Shown: one piece after another, positions 12,548 to 49,198 of the stretch
How the letters are laid out: each line of letters begins with the position of its first letter
How positions within the stretch are numbered: position 1 is the first letter of the stretch
From: Bdellovibrionia bacterium
GTDB lineage: Bacteria; Bdellovibrionota; Bdellovibrionia; Bdellovibrionales; JAGQZY01
Reading direction: 5' to 3'
DNA: 64,000 nucleotides
NCBI GenBank assembly: GCA_030427805.1
Contig: JAUICP010000007.1
Span: forward strand, 1 to 64,000
Notes under the pieces: model-generated
What the model was told of the DNA's origin: nothing
The model's input: the letters and a program-made list of their open reading frames with translations, nothing else
The model's database searches: none
Made by a program: the position numbers and the translations under genes

Positions 12548-14098
12548 ATGCCAACATTGACAGACGGCCTGCAAATGGCGAGTAGTTTTATCTATCGATT
12601 TATACCGAGAAGAGCTCCTTCAGAAGAAGAGTTGTCAAAGGTAAAAATCGTGGCCCACAGGGGAGCTTGGAATCTCACCGACCGACTTGAAAATACTCTG
12701 CCCGCGTTTAGAGAGTGTTTAAATCACAAAATTTGGGCCATCGAATTTGATATTCGTTTCACCAAAGACGATATACCCATTGTGCATCACGATGAATCGA
12801 CCGCGAGAGTTTTCGAAAAAGACCATGTGATTGCAGATATGAATTTCGAAGACCTGCGCAGGGCAGTTCCCCAAATCCCCACTTTTGCAGAGGTCGTTGA
12901 AGAACTTGGTCAGAAGCTCCACTTTATGATCGAATTAAAGACTCAGTTGACCGAAAGCCAGGCTCATATTCTCCAAGATCTCTTAAAAGGCTTGAAGCCC
13001 ATTGAGGATTACCACTTTATGTCCCTAGAGATTTCACGGTTTCAGGCCCTCCATTTTGTTGATAAAAAAGCCTTCGTTTCGATCGCTCGCCTCAATATCA
13101 AGGATGTCTTCGATGAGAGCCTTCGGGAGGACCTCGGTGGCTTTACCGGTCAGTATTTACTTCTCAATCAGTCCATGAATCTTGCGTGCAAGAAAAAAGG
13201 TATTAAGGTGGGTACGGGATTTCCGGATTCCAAAAATCTTTTTTTTCGTGAGGTCAATCGGGGTGTGGATTGGGTGTATACGAATCATGCCCCACTGTTG
13301 GCCCAATTTCTTCTGACACTCTTTCTGGTTTGTAATACAGCACTCGCCAAAGAAAAGGTCTGTGATGGGAAATTTAAAGAACTACCTATTAAGAAAGAAA
13401 TACAGACCCTCGAGAAGATCGAAAGTAAGGCCAAAGAGCTTATCATTGAAAAGCCTGAATGTGAAAAAGACATTATAGAAGTTGCAAGGTATTTGCGGTC
13501 CCAGTATTCGGACCTGATCTCTCTAAAATTTTTGGCAAAGTACGACGGAAAAAAGAATCTGGATTCAATACTGAAGTTTTCTTCAGAGGATTTAAAGAAA
13601 TACGGTATGGAAGTCAGGTCCTCGGAGGGATCGTATTACCTTTTCGATAAGGAGAGTTATTACCTAAAACTGAAATCGAGTACCAACACTCCTTCGGGGC
13701 AGGCATACCAGGAGTTAATTACGGAATATGAAAATGTTGTGGTGCTTGACGATGCCTCGTTGTTAAAGCCCTTTATGGACGTAGCAAAGCTTCTTCTCAA
13801 ATTTGAGAAGTTTGCCCTGAAGTATCCGGAGGCCCTAGATAAAGAGGCTGAGTCAAAAATTAAATTCATGCGCAAAATTCTTGCTGGATTTCTCGACAAT
13901 TCCCCATGTGTCGATAAAAAGTCATTTAAGCTTCTTAAAAAATGTGGACGCGCTATTCGCCATATTGTGCGCTCAAAGTTTGAGTCGCCAAGTCGTAAAC
14001 TCTTTCGCCCGATTTTTAAAAAGGCTATATCTAAAAAAAGAAAAGAACGCAAAGAAGCGGATCTCCTTTTAGAGATGATTAGAAAAGATCCCCATTGA
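12548..14098 (+). CDS. Glycerophosphodiester phosphodiesterase fused to an unknown domain
   Basis: A 516-residue protein. Residues about 32-248 form a GDPD domain: HRG at 37-39, ENT at 48-50, EFD at 66-68 and the catalytic HH at 80-81 are all present, so hydrolysis of glycerophosphodiesters to glycerol-3-phosphate and an alcohol is likely. Directly after the domain end (VYTNHAPLL) comes a hydrophobic stretch, LLAQFLLTLFLVCNTALAKE, that looks like a signal peptide with an AxA-type cleavage site. It is followed by about 250 Lys/Glu-rich residues with no family I know. The reading frame is continuous, so this is either a genuine fusion with an internal membrane segment or two ancestral genes joined. 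No internal ATG or ribosome site precedes the second half. The AGGA site before ATG 12548 fits. Confidence 0.8.
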   Translation: MPTLTDGLQMASSFIYRFIPRRAPSEEELSKVKIVAHRGAWNLTDRLENTLPAFRECLNHKIWAIEFDIRFTKDDIPIVHHDESTARVFEKDHVIADMNFEDLRRAVPQIPTFAEVVEELGQKLHFMIELKTQLTESQAHILQDLLKGLKPIEDYHFMSLEISRFQALHFVDKKAFVSIARLNIKDVFDESLREDLGGFTGQYLLLNQSMNLACKKKGIKVGTGFPDSKNLFFREVNRGVDWVYTNHAPLLAQFLLTLFLVCNTALAKEKVCDGKFKELPIKKEIQTLEKIESKAKELIIEKPECEKDIIEVARYLRSQYSDLISLKFLAKYDGKKNLDSILKFSSEDLKKYGMEVRSSEGSYYLFDKESYYLKLKSSTNTPSGQAYQELITEYENVVVLDDASLLKPFMDVAKLLLKFEKFALKYPEALDKEAESKIKFMRKILAGFLDNSPCVDKKSFKLLKKCGRAIRHIVRSKFESPSRKLFRPIFKKAISKKRKERKEADLLLEMIRKDPH

Positions 14099-34620: not shown

Positions 34621-34814
34621 TGGCTGATTTTTCTTTTCTGAGCTTATGTTTCTGGCTCATTTGCGTAACTTTTATGCGGATTTACAGACATTGTCCCCCA
34701 TTCATAGGGCCTTTTTCAACTCAGAATGAAAATTAGGCCCCACTCTACTAAAATCTGAAAAATCATTCATGGCTCTCTGATTGCTTTATGAAAAGAGCGA
34801 ATGAGGTGAATGTT

Positions 34815-35825
34815 GTGGATTCAAAGTTAGTAAAGTCGAAGCGGATAGAGCTCCTCAAGAGCATTAGAGATAGAAATAAACACATTAAAATCACGAATTC
34901 GGCCACGGCCGCAAATGTGAAAAGTTGGCTTTCGGGCCGCTCCTGCCCCAGTTGGGATCAATTTGTAGATTATTGTAAGCACTATGAACTTGATTTGGGT
35001 TCATCCCTTCTTCTGGCCGGATATCGCTCAGAAGATCTCAGTTATGACTATTTTGTGACCTTTCTTCTTCTCAACTTTAATAGAGATACTCTCAAAGAAG
35101 TCTTAGGCCTTTCACCGAGTTCGATATCAAAAATATCTTCACTCCAAGTAAGACTCAACCTTGATAAAATACTATTACTCATGGGTATTTCATCTCGCCC
35201 ATTTTCTTTAAGCCTCTCACGGCTCCTGGGCAAAAACTTCGCCCTGAGAAATGACTCTGAAAAACAAAAAGAAAAGTATCGTTATATCGAAAAATTGATG
35301 ATGGAAAAGCCTTGGGTTAATACTCTGATCGAAGCTTCCTATCTTTTTTCAGATGAGAACATGCTCGAAAAGTCGACTTATTTTGGTTCCAGTTTTGGGA
35401 TTACTGCTGAAGAAGTAAAGCGAACTTTTAATGGTTTAATAGAACAAGGAATCCTAGAAAAAGATGAGTCTGGTAATTATAAGCCAACTATTTCTGGGCG
35501 ATCGATGGACTACTTCCCCGAGTACGTTCTTGAATACATGCGCTATTTTGCAGACAAGCAAATTCAAGCTTTAGGTAATCATCGTGATAACTACGCGATC
35601 ACCAATACTTTGGCTGTTTCGAGAAAGACCGCATTGCAAATTAGTCAGAAATATTGGGAGTTTGAGAATCACGCAAAAATGCTCGCATCATGCGATCAGA
35701 AAAAAGAAGTGGTTTTACAGATGGACCACTATTTTTGGATCCTTTATCGAGACTTTGAGAAAGAAAAAATCGAAGTCGAACGTCTATTGCGATCTGAGGT
35801 TGAAAACTCTCGCGCACAGCATTAA
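34815..35825 (+). CDS. HTH-type putative regulator, paralogue 1
   Basis: About 336 residues, cytoplasmic. I start it at GTG 34815, where GAGGTG precedes and where the paralogue at 43128-44141 also begins; ATG 34788 would add nine residues. The N-terminal block KRIELLKSIRD...NVKSWLSGRSCPSWDQF resembles an XRE-type helix-turn-helix. A central helical region (LSPSSISKISSLQVRLNLDK) and a C-terminal block, RDNYAITNTLAVS and VVLQMDHYFWIL, follow. The layout distantly recalls the TIGR02147/DUF4423 proteins of Fibrobacter and Bdellovibrio, but that link is by eye. The second copy is about half identical. It is upstream of a collagen-like secreted protein on the same strand, 150 nt away, a candidate target. 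Confidence 0.75.
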   Translation: MDSKLVKSKRIELLKSIRDRNKHIKITNSATAANVKSWLSGRSCPSWDQFVDYCKHYELDLGSSLLLAGYRSEDLSYDYFVTFLLLNFNRDTLKEVLGLSPSSISKISSLQVRLNLDKILLLMGISSRPFSLSLSRLLGKNFALRNDSEKQKEKYRYIEKLMMEKPWVNTLIEASYLFSDENMLEKSTYFGSSFGITAEEVKRTFNGLIEQGILEKDESGNYKPTISGRSMDYFPEYVLEYMRYFADKQIQALGNHRDNYAITNTLAVSRKTALQISQKYWEFENHAKMLASCDQKKEVVLQMDHYFWILYRDFEKEKIEVERLLRSEVENSRAQH

Positions 35826-43127: not shown

Positions 43128-44141
43128 TTACTTAGCGATGGAGTCTTGATCCATACTTTTTTCTTGAATACCGTTCAGTCCAACATTGATCTGAACCTTG
43201 TCTTTAAGAAGAAGCCAGAAAAAATGATCCATGTGCAGAACCAGGTCTCTCTTTTGATCTTTCTTTGCCTCAACTTTGGCGAAAATTTCAAATTCAGCAT
43301 ACTTTTGATAAATCTTGGATGCGGTTTCATTGGATATCGCCAAAGAGTTCGATACACAAAAGTTGTCTCTTCGTTCTTCTAAAGCTCGCATTTGGTACTT
43401 GGCAAAATACTTTCCGTACTCGACTCCCAATTCGGGGTAATGACTCAAACTACGAGCACCTATGCAGGGTTTAAAATACCCTCGAAGATCTCGTTCTATA
43501 ATGTCGTTGGATTCTAAGAGGCGAAGTTGCGCGATAATTTCTTCGGGGCTTAAATCGAAATAGTCGGCAAAATGCTCGGCCACTTGACTTTCATTTTCGT
43601 GACAGAACATATAGCTGCCTTCAATGAGTGTGTTGATCCAAGGCTTTTCAATCAGAAGTCGTTCGACTAAACGATACTTTTCTTCGAGGTCAGCATTACT
43701 CTCTCTAAGAACAAAACGTGTTCCCAACATTTTCGAAAACACCATTGAGAAGGGGCGGGTTGAAATTGTCATAAGGAGCATAATTTTGTCGAGATTGAGT
43801 CGGACCTGAAGGCTTAAGATTTTACTGATTGAACTGGGGGATAAATCGAGTAGTTCTTGGAGATTTTGCCTTGAGAAATCCTTGAGCAAAAACAAAACAA
43901 AACTCTCGTAGGACAAATTGTCCTTACCGTATCCGGAGTATGTGAGTCCTTGACTCAAATTGATCTCATAGTGTTTACAGTAATCAATGAATTGCTCCCA
44001 GCTAGGACAACTTCGTCCAGAGAGCCAATTTTTAACATTCGAAAGAGAAGGAACATCCCTAATTGGTTTTTTCTTGCAATTGTTGCGAATCATTTTTAGC
44101 AATTCGATTCGCTTTTGCCGAATACTATTTGCATCTATCAT
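43128..44141 (-). CDS. HTH-type putative regulator, paralogue 2
   Basis: A 337-residue protein closely related to the one at 34815-35825: the same KRIELLKMIRN...NVKNWLSGRSCPSWEQF helix-turn-helix-like block, the same LSPSSISKILSLQVRLNLDKI core and the same C-terminal RDNFCVSNSLAIS...LHMDHFFWLL. ATG 44141 is chosen because GAAAGG precedes it and it matches the paralogue's start; a further upstream in-frame start at 44195 would add a variable tail. The secreted-protein gene downstream is 23 nt away. It is divergent from the exbB-tonB operon, so it might regulate that operon too, with the palindrome at 44351-44366 as possible site. Confidence 0.78.
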   Translation of the reverse strand: MIDANSIRQKRIELLKMIRNNCKKKPIRDVPSLSNVKNWLSGRSCPSWEQFIDYCKHYEINLSQGLTYSGYGKDNLSYESFVLFLLKDFSRQNLQELLDLSPSSISKILSLQVRLNLDKIMLLMTISTRPFSMVFSKMLGTRFVLRESNADLEEKYRLVERLLIEKPWINTLIEGSYMFCHENESQVAEHFADYFDLSPEEIIAQLRLLESNDIIERDLRGYFKPCIGARSLSHYPELGVEYGKYFAKYQMRALEERRDNFCVSNSLAISNETASKIYQKYAEFEIFAKVEAKKDQKRDLVLHMDHFFWLLLKDKVQINVGLNGIQEKSMDQDSIAK

Positions 44142-44442
44142 TTTGTACCTTTCCTGATGTGACCCACTCAAGAAACTCCTTTGCACTACCACCACACAAA
44201 GGAATGACTAAAGGAAGAGCGAAAACTGTACCCGAAAGACAAGGGTTTAGAATGAAGTGAGGGCGATTAGAGGTCGTGGCCTCTGCCAAACTAATAGACA
44301 ATCCAGACATTATGGGACCATTACAAGACTGGCCGTAAGTCTCGAATCTCACTCAGATATCTGAGTTCAAGAAACTTTTAACGCGGCCCAATTTTCTTCT
44401 CAATTAATAATTGGCTAGAATAAGCAGTCCTAGGAGGAAGCC
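44142..44442. other. Divergent promoter region with a 16-bp palindrome
   Basis: These 301 nt separate HTH paralogue 2 (minus) from the exbB operon (plus). They hold the palindrome at 44351-44366 and a weak AGAGG/CCTCT dyad near 44269-44284. Short frames on both strands cross this region and the paralogue start but lack ribosome sites. No convincing gene. Confidence 0.5.
44351..44366 (+). promoter_or_regulatory. 16-bp perfect palindrome upstream of exbB
   Basis: ACTCAGAT-ATCTGAGT is self-complementary over all 16 bases and lies 76 nt before the exbB start. It does not resemble the Fur box, so control by something other than classic iron regulation is possible. The divergent HTH gene is the nearest candidate regulator. 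Confidence 0.5.
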
Positions 44443-45012
44443 ATGGCGTGGATGCTAATTGTTGAATGGAGTGCCCGACTCATCCTTTTACTTATGATTG
44501 GTTTATCGGTTTGGTCGATCTCGATTATTCTAAATCGTCGGAATTTTTTCTCGCAGTGGAAAAAACTAAAATCAAATAAAGAGATTGAAGAAAAGGGCTT
44601 CGAATACAAAGAGTCCGACGGTGACCCACGCTTGGAGTTTTTAAGTCAGTGCGATGGACTTCCTGAAAAATCCCTCGATCAAGTTTTTACAGCTTTTAAA
44701 AATGATAGTCTTAAAGACTGGGGGCAAGGTCTTAATGTGCTTGGTACCTTGGGCTCGACGACTCCCTTTATTGGTCTACTCGGTACAATCCTTGGCATTA
44801 TAGTTTCTTTTGGTGAACTTTCAGAAAACTCAGCCGATATGAATGCAGTTATGTTTTCGCTGGCAGAAGCACTTATCTTAACTGCGGTGGGTCTGGCTGT
44901 TGCTATTCCAGCGGTCATCGCTTTTAACTATTTTAATAAAAAAATGAATACGATGTTAAGGGATGTCGAGAGCATCAAGGAACGTTATAAGGCGCGCAAG
45001 CAGATAGGGTAA
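44443..45012 (+). CDS. exbB: ExbB/TolQ-type proton channel subunit
   Basis: A 189-residue inner-membrane protein with three helices. The conserved ExbB/MotA block spans the end of the second and third helices: GTLGSTTPFIGLLGTILGII and the SLAEALILTAVGLAVAIPAVIAFN helix-turn-helix typical of the family, ending in basic residues. It forms the proton-conducting complex with ExbD that powers TonB. Shorter than E. coli ExbB (244), lacking part of the N-terminal extension. First gene of a five-gene unit: exbD begins 3 nt after its stop. GGAGG precedes ATG. Confidence 0.93.
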   Translation: MAWMLIVEWSARLILLLMIGLSVWSISIILNRRNFFSQWKKLKSNKEIEEKGFEYKESDGDPRLEFLSQCDGLPEKSLDQVFTAFKNDSLKDWGQGLNVLGTLGSTTPFIGLLGTILGIIVSFGELSENSADMNAVMFSLAEALILTAVGLAVAIPAVIAFNYFNKKMNTMLRDVESIKERYKARKQIG

Positions 45013-45015
45013 CAG

Positions 45016-45435
45016 ATGGCCGGATCGTTTGACTCCGAAGGAGAATCAATAAGTGACATCAACATTACGCCTTTCGTAGATGTGGTGCTTGTTCTGCTCG
45101 TTATTTTCATGGTGACTGCACCTATGATGGTGCAAAAAGTACTGGATGTTCAATTGCCCAATTCTGAAAGTTCGGATACCACACAACCTGATACTCTAGC
45201 AGTTGCCGTGACCTCAAACGGTCAGTTTTTGATTAATGGCAATATTACGACCGATAATGGTCTATTAGATCAGGCGAGTTCGGCCGTTGAACGAAATAAA
45301 AATGTACAAGTTATTATTGCGGCGGACATGGAATCCGCTCACAAGTTCGTAATAAAGGCCATTGACCTAATCAAGCGAGCTGGGGTCGAAAACTTTGCTT
45401 TTCAGGTGACTCGGACAACTGAAGAAATTCAATAG
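45016..45435 (+). CDS. exbD: ExbD-type proton channel subunit
   Basis: A 139-residue protein with one N-terminal transmembrane helix (VDVVLVLLVIFMVTAPM), containing the conserved membrane Asp in the NITPFVDVVLVLL motif, and a periplasmic domain (TLAVAVTSNGQFLINGN) ending in VENFAFQVTR. Length agrees with the family (141). It couples proton flux to TonB together with ExbB. One nucleotide separates its stop from the tonB start. Confidence 0.93.
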   Translation: MAGSFDSEGESISDINITPFVDVVLVLLVIFMVTAPMMVQKVLDVQLPNSESSDTTQPDTLAVAVTSNGQFLINGNITTDNGLLDQASSAVERNKNVQVIIAADMESAHKFVIKAIDLIKRAGVENFAFQVTRTTEEIQ

Positions 45436-45436
45436 A

Positions 45437-46099
45437 ATGAAAATAAACAAAAACGTATTTGTCCTACAGTCTTTTGCGATTCATTTCTTAGGAGCAGCTC
45501 TGGTCCTTATCATAAGCCTATTGAGCACGTCAGAACCTCAATCAGATAAAATTCAGTTTAAAGTTATAGAAAAAGTAGTTGAGCAGAAGAAAGAAGAAGT
45601 ACAAATACAAATTACGCAAAAACCAAAACCAAAGGACCCTCCCAAAGATAAGCCAAAAAAGAAGCCGCGAGAAGTATTCGGTGTTAATAGAAAGTCTATT
45701 ACATCAGAGAAACAAGCGAGCCCTATTGTTAAGCAAGGAAACACGGTCACAAAGGAAGTTGATAATAAAAAACTCAATAAAGATGATCTCGACGAATTGC
45801 CAATTCCAAAGGCGGAGTACTTGGTGACTGAAATGCCGTCGATACTATCTGAGGCAAGGATAAGGTATCCGGAAAAAGCGAAAGAGATGGGCCTTGAAGG
45901 AGTGGTTGTCTTAAGCTTATTGATTGATTCCGAGGGACGAGTTAGAGAGGCTCAAATTGTCGAAGGCTTGACCAACGAAATGGATCAGGAGGCTCTGCGT
46001 GCTATTAAAGATTACCGTTTCAATCCCGCAAAAATTGAAAAAGAAAAGGTTGCAGTTAGGATTAGATATGCCATTCGCTTTGTACTTGAAAATAATTAG
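45437..46099 (+). CDS. tonB: TonB energy-transducing protein
   Basis: A 220-residue periplasm-spanning protein. The N-terminal helix (VLQSFAIHFLGAALVLIISL) anchors it in the inner membrane, a Lys/Pro-rich spacer (KPKPKDPPKDKPKKKP) reaches across the periplasm, and the C-terminal domain (IRYPEKAKEMGLEGVVVLSL, YRFNPA) is the receptor-contacting fold. It passes energy from ExbB/D to the outer-membrane receptor encoded next. The receptor start lies inside the tonB coding region by 32 nt. The gene order argues for a receptor-dedicated system. Confidence 0.94.
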   Translation: MKINKNVFVLQSFAIHFLGAALVLIISLLSTSEPQSDKIQFKVIEKVVEQKKEEVQIQITQKPKPKDPPKDKPKKKPREVFGVNRKSITSEKQASPIVKQGNTVTKEVDNKKLNKDDLDELPIPKAEYLVTEMPSILSEARIRYPEKAKEMGLEGVVVLSLLIDSEGRVREAQIVEGLTNEMDQEALRAIKDYRFNPAKIEKEKVAVRIRYAIRFVLENN

Positions 46100-48347
46100 T
46101 AGCATTCTTTTTAGTCTTTTCGTTTTCATGCATTCAGCCAATGCTGAGCTCGAGCTTAAAGGACAAGTTTTAGAGCGTGGAACAAAAAAACCACTGGCCA
46201 ATGTTAATGTATTTATACTCCCGGAGGGTTTAAAGGCGACAAGCGATAAGGACGGGAATTTCGTTTTTTCGAATGCTCCAAGGGGTGAGCGCGAGTGGAT
46301 TCTGACTGTGACTGGCTATAAGAGAGTCAAAGAAAAGTTTACCTACCAGGGGAACACCTCGAATATTCGAATATTCGTTGAAAAAAACTCTTACGTTGAC
46401 TTTGAAACGACAGTTGTCGGAAGGAGAGAGAAAAAGGAAGCCGCTCGAACTGTTCTAAAGCAAGAAGAGTTTATTACACTCCCCGGTTCTGCGGGTGACC
46501 CAGTTCGGGCCCTAGAAAACTTACCGGGAGTTCTGCAGAGTTTCGACGCGAATGTCGCTATTCAGGGGAGCCCACCCGAAGACACTAAATACCTGATTGA
46601 GGGACATGAGATTCCATTTATATTTCACTTTTTCGGACTCAATACCGTAGCGGTCCCGGAGACTGTGGAGTCCGTCGAGTTTTTGACTGCAGGTTATGGG
46701 CCCGAATATGGAAGAGCATCGAGTGGAATTATTAATTTAAATTTGCGGCAACCGCGCAAGGACCGTAGCTATGGAATGGCCTACATAGATTTTACGGCCT
46801 CAGGCGGATTTTTAGAGGGACGAATAACTGAGGACAAGAAGCAAAGTTACTTCGTTGGGGGTCGATATAGTTATGTTGGAGAAGTTATTAAATTTGCAAG
46901 CGAGCAAATTGACGATGAAGAAGATAGTCCGCCGGCATTTAATACAGCGCCTACCTATTGGGACATAAACCTCACATATCTTAATGAGTCTTGGGAGAAA
47001 ATGAAGTTTCGTTTGATTACATTAGCCTCTCAGGATCGTGTCGAGGCGATTGTCGATGGAGCTGATAACCCCACATTTTCTCGTAGAGTCTTTGGTACCA
47101 CTCGATTTTATCGAGTTATCCCAAAACTCGAATTTGATTTTTCGAGTCGTTCAAAATTTGAGACGTCGTTGGGAGTGGGAACGGATATTAGTGAATTTAA
47201 ACCTGGGGAGCAGGAGTTTTTAATTGATAACTTTCGCCTCAGTTGGCGGTCGAATTACTCGCGAGAAGTGAGTGACATTTATAATTTTAACATCGGAACT
47301 GACTTTATTTTTCAAGATTCGACGGTAGAGACACGAATTGCTCAGAGCTTTTTCAGTCGAAGTGAAATCAACACTCCCTTTGAAATTTCAGATTTAATTA
47401 TAGGTAAGCAAAAGTCGAGTGAATTGCAGCAAGGCTATTTTTTAAGAAATGAATTTCGCCTCTTTTCTCAAAGTCTAAAAGTTCAACCCAACCTTCGATA
47501 CGATTACTTTAAACTGCATAATCGAGGGTACCTTCAGCCGCGACTGAGCGTAATTTATAGTCTCACTGAGGATTCCAGCCTTTATTTTAATTCGGGAATT
47601 TACGTACAACCTGAAAATAGTATTAATTTGTCTGAGGAGTCTGGAAATCCAGATCTTCTACCAACCCAAAGCAATCATTATTCAATTCGCTATGAGCATG
47701 ATTTTCGCCAAGGTAAAAACGATGGTCTGTTGCTGACATCCGGTGTTTTTTATAAGAATCTGAAGGATCTTATTACTGACAGTTCCGAATTAGTCACCCG
47801 TGATGGTGAACAGGTGCCTGAGCGTTTTAGCAATTCTGGAAAAGGCGAAGTCAAGGGCCTCGAAACGCTCCTGCGTTATCAAAAGGGAAAGACGAAAGTT
47901 AACTTTGGTTACACCTACACAGAGAGTACTCGAATTGACCCTCTAACGGGTCAGGAATTTCCCTCTGAACAGGATCAAACCCACAATCTTAATCTAACTG
48001 TCGCCTATTCTTGGGGAAACTGGAATCTGTCCGGACGCTTTCGCTATGTAACGGGTTTACCTAAAACACCCATTGAATCGGGAATCTACTTTGAAAATGC
48101 CGATATTTATCTGCCAGTACAGGGAGAACGATTCTCAGAGAGATTGGGAGATTTTTGGCAATTGGACGCTCGTCTTGATCGCAAGTGGATTTACGATACA
48201 TGGATTCTCTCATTTTACTTAGACATACAAAATATAACGAATCGAGAGAATCCGACCGGTATTGCCTATAGTTTTGATTATTCTGAGCGAGATACAAACA
48301 TGGGGCTGCCTATTTTGCCAAGTTTTGGTGTTAAAGGAGAGTTTTAA
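46068..48347 (+). CDS. TonB-dependent outer-membrane receptor with carboxypeptidase-regulatory-like domain
   Basis: About 759 residues. I start it at ATG 46068 (AGGATTAGAT before it), 32 nt inside tonB; the open frame reaches back to 45999 but that part mirrors tonB. A signal peptide (MPFALYLKIISSILFSLFVF...ANAE) leads to a CarboxypepD_reg-like domain (about 25-105), then the plug (TTVVGRR, ALENLPGVLQSF, VAIQGSPPEDTKYLIEG) and the beta-barrel with a typical terminal aromatic (GVKGEF). Such receptors import siderophores, cobalamin, glycans or metals. The substrate cannot be deduced. Its partner lipoprotein is encoded just downstream. Confidence 0.95.
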   Translation: MPFALYLKIISSILFSLFVFMHSANAELELKGQVLERGTKKPLANVNVFILPEGLKATSDKDGNFVFSNAPRGEREWILTVTGYKRVKEKFTYQGNTSNIRIFVEKNSYVDFETTVVGRREKKEAARTVLKQEEFITLPGSAGDPVRALENLPGVLQSFDANVAIQGSPPEDTKYLIEGHEIPFIFHFFGLNTVAVPETVESVEFLTAGYGPEYGRASSGIINLNLRQPRKDRSYGMAYIDFTASGGFLEGRITEDKKQSYFVGGRYSYVGEVIKFASEQIDDEEDSPPAFNTAPTYWDINLTYLNESWEKMKFRLITLASQDRVEAIVDGADNPTFSRRVFGTTRFYRVIPKLEFDFSSRSKFETSLGVGTDISEFKPGEQEFLIDNFRLSWRSNYSREVSDIYNFNIGTDFIFQDSTVETRIAQSFFSRSEINTPFEISDLIIGKQKSSELQQGYFLRNEFRLFSQSLKVQPNLRYDYFKLHNRGYLQPRLSVIYSLTEDSSLYFNSGIYVQPENSINLSEESGNPDLLPTQSNHYSIRYEHDFRQGKNDGLLLTSGVFYKNLKDLITDSSELVTRDGEQVPERFSNSGKGEVKGLETLLRYQKGKTKVNFGYTYTESTRIDPLTGQEFPSEQDQTHNLNLTVAYSWGNWNLSGRFRYVTGLPKTPIESGIYFENADIYLPVQGERFSERLGDFWQLDARLDRKWIYDTWILSFYLDIQNITNRENPTGIAYSFDYSERDTNMGLPILPSFGVKGEF

Positions 48348-49198
48348 TGAGAAGTAAACTAACTCTATTAATGATCTCAAGCGTACTTTCTTTACTTTTA
48401 ACCTCTTGCAATCGAGCTGAGTTCGAGGAGTTTTCTGAGTTGGGTTCTTTGAGAATTCTCGGAGTCGTTGCCGACAGCCCAGAAGTGGATGGAACGGCTA
48501 CGGGAACTGTCAATATTAGTCTAACCCCAGTAATTAGTGATATTGATGGAGCTGGAAGAACTTTTGCCGTGACGGTAGTCTCTTGTTTAGACACTGGCTT
48601 TGTTCAATCCAGTCAGCCCTCTTGTGAAAATCCAACTGTTGAGGCTTATCCCAATGGAGGAACATTCAATACGACGGGTTTGGCGGCGAGTGATTTCACA
48701 GGGGCAATGGATCCGATTACAATTAGTATAAATAATCCAGCGTCTTTAATTGCCGATTTCAGTTCAACTCGTAGATTCAACGGCGTTTCCTACTTCGTGA
48801 TATTCAACTTGCAGTCAGGAAGTGAGAATTTTACTTTTGTCAAAGAACTCGTCATTACTGAGAGAACGCCTCTCAATCAAAACCCTGTTATTGACTCTAT
48901 TCAATTTAATGGAAGCGCAATCGCAACGGGACCGAGTACTACCGGAGAACTCTCCATGGAGTTTACTCCCGCGGGAGAGCCTGAAACCTACCAAGAGCAA
49001 AGGTCTGACGGTGTCTTGGAATCCATTACAGAATCTTATTTAATAACCTGGTTCTATTCCTCCGGAAAAGTGAGTCCCGGGAGAATTTTGACGGATCAAT
49101 CATCGACCTTTAAGCCCGAGAATTCGACGGCCATTCGCCTTGTGGGAGTTGTAAAAGACCGCCGAGGTGGAACCGCCTTTGTGAACTTGAGTCCCTAG
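48347..49198 (+). CDS. Lipoprotein encoded with the TonB-dependent receptor
   Basis: A 283-residue lipoprotein (lipobox LTSC, about residue 21) whose start overlaps the receptor stop by one base, preceded by AAAGGAG. The mature chain is beta-rich, with PKD/Ig-like spacing (GTVNISLTPVI, TEITFTPAG-like segments, SESYLITWFYSSGKVSPG and TAIRLVGVVKDRRGGTAFVNL). By analogy with SusD-like and BtuG/HusA-type partners it may hold substrate at the cell surface, but it resembles none of them in sequence. Last gene of the exbB operon. Confidence 0.75.
   Translation: MRSKLTLLMISSVLSLLLTSCNRAEFEEFSELGSLRILGVVADSPEVDGTATGTVNISLTPVISDIDGAGRTFAVTVVSCLDTGFVQSSQPSCENPTVEAYPNGGTFNTTGLAASDFTGAMDPITISINNPASLIADFSSTRRFNGVSYFVIFNLQSGSENFTFVKELVITERTPLNQNPVIDSIQFNGSAIATGPSTTGELSMEFTPAGEPETYQEQRSDGVLESITESYLITWFYSSGKVSPGRILTDQSSTFKPENSTAIRLVGVVKDRRGGTAFVNLSP

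Follow-up and report, generated by a model that had tools for sequence, protein, structure and literature searches.

Positions 44,443-49,198 of the window, a 64,000-nt stretch of contig JAUICP010000007.1 (GCA_030427805.1) from a Bdellovibrionia bacterium, carry a five-gene operon of exbB, exbD, tonB, a TonB-dependent receptor (TBDR) and a lipoprotein (Table 1). This operon probably encodes a lipoprotein-assisted TonB-dependent import system that has its own Ton motor and operates in the manner of SusCD, BtuBG or XusAB, its lipoprotein being unrelated to theirs. Lipoprotein-assisted TonB import is itself known; new here are a lipoprotein family unlike SusD, BtuG or XusB and a motor encoded in the same operon. 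No paper describing the operon or the lipoprotein family was found in the open-licence PMC literature.

The gene set and its tight packing, first proposed in an initial annotation of the window, are confirmed by the coordinates and by Pfam. The gaps are 3 nt between exbB and exbD and 1 nt between exbD and tonB, while tonB overlaps the receptor gene by 32 nt and the receptor and lipoprotein genes overlap by 1 nt (TAATG). The 32-nt overlap is shared by a same-genus relative (L041, 6014 versus 6045) and by L042 (9016 versus 9047), the nearest more distant relative with 56% receptor identity, and is thus no oddity of a single assembly. Since the gene order is kept across two phyla, the five-gene operon is far beyond chance.

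The ExbB, ExbD and TonB_C domains are encoded together, all above their Pfam cut-offs, and the TonB translation reads as a membrane anchor followed by a Pro/Lys-rich linker and the TonB C-terminal domain. The two channel proteins fall below every NCBIfam equivalog cut-off, the best being tolQ (105 of 221 bits) and tolR (96.7 of 127.3 bits). They are assigned as ExbB and ExbD, not TolQ and TolR, because of the TonB_C domain and the adjoining receptor. In VIA-align, the AF2 model of the receptor (pLDDT 82.6, pTM 0.80) superposes on solved TBDRs across 491-595 residues (Z scores 30.9-37.2). This alignment and a Plug domain above cut-off identify the protein as a TBDR, predicted to have a plug within a 22-strand barrel.

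In the proposed mechanism, the receptor would span the outer membrane as a plugged barrel. The lipoprotein, anchored in the same membrane and probably surface-displayed, may capture the ligand or cap the barrel as a lid, and would hand the ligand inward. ExbB and ExbD would use the proton gradient to drive TonB, which would pull the plug and let a small ligand pass. The coupling of the genes, with gaps of 1-3 nt and overlaps of 32 nt and 1 nt, suggests that the five proteins are made together.

Table 1. Features of the operon and its upstream region (positions in the window)
Feature	Position	Strand	Evidence or remark
HTH-like gene, divergent from the operon	43128..44195	-	GTG start 44195 or ATG 44141
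Intergenic region, presumed operon promoter, 247 nt	44196..44442	.	sister genome identical at 226/247
16-bp perfect palindrome ACTCAGATATCTGAGT	44351..44366	.	77-92 nt upstream of exbB start
exbB ribosome-binding site AGGAGG	44432..44437	+	read from sequence
exbB, 189 aa, MotA/TolQ/ExbB proton channel	44443..45012	+	Pfam MotA_ExbB 2.6e-26, 92.3 bits, cut-off 22.9
exbD, 139 aa	45016..45435	+	Pfam ExbD 6.8e-27, 94.5 bits, cut-off 25.4
tonB, 220 aa	45437..46099	+	Pfam TonB_C 7.9e-20, 71.5 bits, cut-off 24.6
TBDR, 759 aa	46068..48347	+	Pfam CarbopepD_reg_2 and Plug; alternative GTG start 45999
Carboxypeptidase-regulatory-like N-terminal domain of receptor, residues 30-117	46155..46418	+	PF13715 4.5e-13
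Receptor plug domain	46437..46727	+	PF07715, Plug 1e-5
Partner lipoprotein, 283 aa, lipid Cys = residue 21	48347..49198	+	lipobox read from sequence
Codon of lipid-bearing Cys21, then NRAEFEEF (acidic mature N-terminus)	48407..48409	+	

Conservation of the receptor-lipoprotein pair

Among named records the closest is JAUHWN010000065.1, from a Bdellovibrionia metagenome-assembled genome (MAG), at 99% receptor identity. A search with the lipoprotein found it in 12 of 59 relatives, and the receptor adjoins it in all 12. The receptor was also searched for in 35 of these 59 genomes (all 11 carriers besides the own genome and 24 non-carriers), and its presence agrees with that of the lipoprotein in 35 of 35. 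A profile built from the 12 lipoprotein sequences matches 68 of 290 Bdellovibrionota genomes. A receptor-profile scan of the genome collection gave 377 related stretches, and the 79 distinct loci retained from these comprise 60 on the Bdellovibrionota side and 19 on the Myxococcota side; its genome set overlaps that of the lipoprotein search, and the two counts are not additive.

On the Bdellovibrionota side the lipoprotein gene lies right after the receptor in 52 of the 60 loci and right before it in three (L069, L077 and L104). The remaining five end at most 36 nt past the receptor, so the pair adjoins in 55 of 55 testable loci. Both exbB and exbD are present within 9 kb upstream in 40/60, and 34/60 have the full gene order plus the lipoprotein. 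Less than 2 kb of sequence lies upstream of the receptor in 13 of the 20 loci that lack exbBD; the other seven (L084, L086, L088, L089, L090, L092 and L097) have 5.9-9 kb upstream and are still without these genes. On the Myxococcota side the lipoprotein directly follows the receptor in 15/19 loci and local exbBD genes occur in two (L100 and L107), as well as in L163, a locus that was fetched separately.

The receptor tree, built by a quick method with SH-aLRT support only, splits the two sides with full support into 56 and 25 rows. In distance matrices from 26 loci the partial correlation between receptor and lipoprotein is 0.38, compared with 0.43 for the known pair ExbB-ExbD. The lipoprotein correlates less with ExbB (0.24) and ExbD (0.09) than with the receptor.

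No family other than those of the five genes is found in more than 9 of the 79 loci; the neighbours change from clade to clade, and no iron genes are constant neighbours across the loci. In one genome (G007, L022:3569-6853) three minus-strand genes lie between tonB and the receptor, splitting the operon. L061 (CALQIT020000023.1), labelled as a Streptomyces griseus MAG, carries the operon and groups within Bdellovibrionota in the tree; it is probably a mislabelled or contaminated bin. An apparent TonB-receptor fusion in G026 (L020) was rejected: a 986-aa frame spans both genes, with TonB in another frame.

The partner lipoprotein and its known counterparts

The lipoprotein has no Pfam match at E 0.001 and no NCBIfam match, and the same holds for eight relatives from both phyla, which give sub-threshold chance matches only. 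These searches bear out the earlier view that it stands outside the known partner families. The 12 lipoprotein members have no Pfam family in common, and none of them matches DUF4374. Cys21, Cys80 and Cys93 are invariant in 48 homologues.

The AF2 model (pLDDT 91.2, pTM 0.84) is beta-rich with few short helices, and is predicted to consist of two immunoglobulin-like (Ig-like) beta-sandwich domains, residues ~33-171 and 180-283. The best VIA Z scores are 8.5 (RbmA) for the first and 7.2 (intimin) for the second, scores that VIA itself classes as 'common' or close to it. The top Foldseek rows, factor XIII and transglutaminases, reach a TM-score of at most 0.28 and come from the common Ig/fibronectin type III sandwich. 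No SusD, BtuG or XusB chain is among the listed fold matches, and absence from this list excludes nothing.

The mature lipoprotein starts with CNRAEFEEF. Among the 48 homologues, 41 begin the mature protein with C-[GS]; position +3 is acidic in 25 and position +4 in 27. One or more acidic residues lie between +2 and +6 in 46/48, versus 3/14 other lipobox open reading frames (ORFs) of the same loci. Several Myxococcota homologues (16 inspected) are also acidic there, for example CTPEDF and CEEDF. The consensus of the Bacteroidota lipoprotein export signal (LES) is given as SDDDD and SDDFE in the passages of PMC5080379 that treat it. The likeness is one of resemblance only, acidic residues following closely after the +1 Cys. 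Because the acidic mature N-terminus is like this Bacteroidota signal, the lipoprotein is likely displayed on the cell surface, where it may form a physical complex with the receptor.

XusAB, a Bacteroides xenosiderophore transporter with its lipoprotein, serves as the working analogy. It resembles the window pair in having a TBDR with an N-terminal carboxypeptidase-like domain (here PF13715) and a lipoprotein partner, which acts as a lid; according to the XusAB portion of PMC13142918, XusB is a beta-propeller of the DUF4374 family. The window lipoprotein differs in lacking a DUF4374 or other Pfam match and in its two predicted Ig-like sandwiches. The matches listed for its model are generic beta-sandwiches with Z of at most 8.5, which leaves unlisted folds such as a propeller unexcluded. 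The exbB-exbD-tonB genes are also in the same operon here, and the phyla are different. BtuBG, which serves vitamin B12 in Bacteroides, is similar in receptor fold (8p97, Z 34.9; 8blw, Z 31.3) and in having a lipoprotein partner. The window receptor differs in scoring 16.5 bits against the BtuB model TIGR01779 (cut-off 599.7), and no solved lipoprotein of the BtuG kind is matched by sequence profile.

The Bacteroidota glycan importers SusCD share the CarbopepD_reg_2 domain, the order of receptor gene then lipoprotein gene and the acidic N-terminus after the lipid Cys. The window receptor is smaller and has no SusC/RagA TIGR04056 match at E 0.01; the best such score among its relatives is 21.7 bits of 368.25, in L059. 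SusD has a helical fold, whereas the window lipoprotein model is beta-rich, with no SusD-type Pfam match.

Several points weigh against lipoprotein-assisted import. Four of the 19 Myxococcota loci showed no lipoprotein directly after the receptor, though L118 has one before it. The distance correlations account for species history only through three control genes. The background set for the acidic N-terminus is small, at 14 lipobox ORFs, and the 48 homologues are related to each other, so the acidic motif may instead serve in receptor binding or simply be inherited. The surface-export signal was defined in Bacteroidota and may not apply in Bdellovibrionota, and a position on the periplasmic side is just as possible for the lipoprotein. 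The direction of transport is not certain from homology, since the TBDR Oar (MXAN_1450) of Myxococcus xanthus, which has a role in PopC secretion, is required for protein secretion, as stated in the Oar passages of PMC6434023.

It is mainly in Bacteroidota that receptors with a surface lipoprotein lid have been described. If the window system is of this type, its conserved pair in two other phyla would show that lid-type import arose more than once, and would open a practicable way to study nutrient uptake in predatory bacteria. With its acidic mature N-terminus, the lipoprotein also allows surface export of lipoproteins in Bdellovibrionota to be put to the test.

Ligand, motor and Myxococcus relatives

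The receptor falls below every curated NCBIfam substrate equivalog cut-off, in agreement with the initial annotation, which had left the imported substrate open. Its plug and barrel comprise ~645 residues, the size of the siderophore and B12 importers Fiu, Cir, FyuA and BtuB and below that of the listed FusA and SusC chains, and a small ligand is therefore likely. The VIA Z scores are 37.2 for Fiu, 36.3 for both Cir and FyuA and 35.7 for BtuB, with FptA also within ~2 Z. The fold was thus rejected as a substrate indicator, as siderophore and B12 receptors tie. The nearest solved chains by sequence profile are Cir (1.6e-8) and BtuB (4.6e-5). Residues 113-118, ETTVVG, precede the plug, with E113 and V116 invariant in nine sequences; by the TonB-box consensus, this stretch is a candidate TonB box.

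An iron chelate is the best single guess for the ligand, and a guess that is quite possible while falling short of probable. The receptor would then take up a ferric siderophore or haem, and the operon would be under some iron control. The catecholate receptor Cir is nearest by sequence profile, the top VIA Z scores belong to Fiu, Cir and FyuA, and the best NCBIfam match of the receptor is a weak one to TonB-hemin (37.1 bits of 316.85). The M. xanthus Ton cluster MXAN_0819-0821 is discussed with iron uptake, and named among those expressed in predation, in the part of PMC9548883 that covers it. However, BtuB scores nearly as high as these receptors, so that the fold does not separate the classes, and there is no substrate match above cut-off, no Escherichia coli-type Fur box and no constant iron-gene neighbour.

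It is also possible, if somewhat doubtful, that the ligand is another small molecule, such as cobalamin or a different cofactor, a peptide or a compound derived from prey. The close structural matches include BtuB and BtuBG complexes (Z 31.3-35.7), BtuB is matched by sequence profile as well, and the carriers of the system include predatory lineages. The BtuB equivalog score is nevertheless far below cut-off, and with no neighbour family in more than 9/79 loci, none points to such a ligand. That the receptor has a role like that of Oar and does not import a nutrient is very unlikely: both are CarboxypepD-type TBDRs beside a Ton system, but Oar is 300-400 aa longer than typical TBDRs (both points from the Oar passages of PMC6434023), the window receptor has an ordinary importer-size barrel, and the family profile gives only 32.6 bits to the closest Oar-sized Myxococcus protein, a 1087-aa frame. 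Those Oar passages make no mention of a lipoprotein of this family.

A small 2Fe-2S ferredoxin-like gene, recognised by eye, lies ~2-3 kb before the receptor in L059, L066 and L099, directly before exbB in the first. Directly downstream of the lipoprotein gene in L019 (10107-13638) is a carotenoid-like cluster (crtY, crtI and crtB, named by eye), and L023 has a phytoene-synthase-like gene 0.7 kb away (also by eye). A carotenoid substrate was rejected as a general clue, since such neighbours are clade-specific and none is found in more than 9/79 loci.

The Ton motor had been described as dedicated to this receptor. The operon does encode its own ExbB, ExbD and TonB, but exclusive use of them is not upheld. 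At least seven related loci have no local exbBD. The own genome has eight Plug-domain matches and 12 TonB_C matches, three of the latter strong (73-82 bits). Each of the three strong TonBs lies within ~6 kb of a receptor, leaving five receptors with none of these nearby. With eight receptors and three strong TonBs, one or more of the TonBs must be shared between receptors, unless the remaining receptors depend on a weaker TonB-like protein. There is a precedent in M. xanthus, where the N-terminal part of Oar interacts with the TonBs MXAN_0276 and MXAN_0820 of other clusters, as given in the interaction results of PMC6434023.

All 19 named receptors of the Myxococcota side (L093-L118) have an extra TonB C-terminal domain in frame, which the window receptor lacks. 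It is placed between the signal peptide and the carboxypeptidase-like domain, and some loci also encode a full TonB just upstream. Tethered to the receptor and free of a membrane anchor, such a TonB domain could compete from within for the TonB box. TonB_C matches number 22 and 21 in two Myxococcus genomes, many of them in frames of 700-1050 aa. The TonB_C-bearing Myxococcus receptors, of MxcH-like architecture, form a sister clade in the receptor tree, with a lipoprotein homologue downstream. The MxcH model NF038079 (cut-off 925 bits), in which TonB_C is fused to the receptor, is matched in the window only by the separate TonB (positions 1-87, 63.7 bits); the Myxococcus receptor L093 scores 89.2 bits with it.

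L163, from a Myxococcus genome, has exbB-exbD-tonB, a receptor with the extra TonB_C (L163:2307-5033) and then the lipoprotein. It shares exbB-exbD-tonB with L100, L107 and the window operon. Since its receptor is on a long branch with distant paralogues (tree row L155), L163 counts as related to the window receptor without being strictly orthologous to it. L163 may correspond to the M. xanthus cluster MXAN_0818-0822. Its tonB is directly followed by the receptor, matching the numbering 0820-0821, and of six strong family receptors that were examined in the genome, just one has a complete exbB-exbD-tonB set beside it. Against this, the models used detected no Ton genes around two weaker receptors, which leaves the elimination incomplete. 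Deletion of MXAN_0821 failed, as reported in the section of PMC6434023 on this receptor, and the predation passages of PMC9548883 name MXAN_0819-0821 among the Ton complexes expressed in predatory conditions.

These strands may be combined in a wider reading, tentative and rather improbable as a whole. Lipoprotein-assisted TonB import, with an unnamed two-domain Ig-like lipoprotein and LES-like display, would have arisen outside Bacteroidota and be common to the mainly predatory Bdellovibrionota and Myxococcota. The Myxococcus counterpart, of the L163 type, would be the Ton cluster of the undeletable MXAN_0821, named among predation-expressed genes. If all of this were true, the system would import something indispensable to a predator.

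The promoter gap and the divergent HTH gene

The palindrome ACTCAGATATCTGAGT that had been noted in the promoter gap is present and perfect, and has a single exact copy in the 4.5-Mb genome. The remaining sites at up to 3 mismatches all have 3, and the genome scan at this threshold finds 19 places, versus 24 for a reversed control pattern. The window holds four perfect palindromes of at least 16 bp, where first-order Markov simulations expect 0.9 per 64 kb; at least one falls in the 247-nt gap in 0.4% of 3000 such simulations. Given these figures, the palindrome is a little out of the ordinary for where it lies, and nothing special for a 64-kb window. Two perfect palindromes of 18 bp are longer, at 46360-46377 (within the receptor gene) and 13793-13810.

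The site was said to lie opposite a helix-turn-helix (HTH) gene, and its position is as described. That it is an operator, bound by the oppositely encoded HTH protein and controlling the operon, is unlikely. The symmetry in the promoter gap is perfect, and the sister species keeps the outer five bases of each arm. However, the sister site is ACTCATTTATCTGAGT, in which both of the 2/16 changed bases break the symmetry, and with 21/247 differences across the whole gap the site is conserved no better than its surroundings. The exact palindrome is in none of 36 other upstream regions; the best of these has one mismatch to ACTCA-N6-TGAGT, at a different position. The HTH gene adjoins the operon only within the same genus and is probably outside the conserved unit. 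The alternative of a hairpin in the leader RNA fares no better, the leader structure being ordinary (z -0.91).

The HTH-like protein has no Pfam match at E 0.001 and no NCBIfam match, and weak sub-cut-off matches are to HTH_3 and HTH_26. A paralogue at 34788-35825 on the plus strand shares 51% identity with it across 314 residues and has a sub-cut-off match to DUF4423. The two are probably a divergent lineage of DUF4423-type regulator. Binding of the palindrome by such a protein, as the initial annotation had raised, is not supported by the paralogue, which has no palindrome-like site; the window holds a single match at up to 3 mismatches. Regulation through the HTH protein and the palindrome is possible within the genus but is no feature of the wider system.

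The palindrome had also been judged not to be a Fur-type site, and no E. coli-type Fur box was found: the best matches differ from the E. coli consensus, which may not be that of this phylum, at 8-9 of 19 positions, and shuffled sequences at 8.2 on average. No Zur box was found upstream against a Zur consensus, and a simple scan of the gap gave no sigma-70-like site, promoter or terminator.

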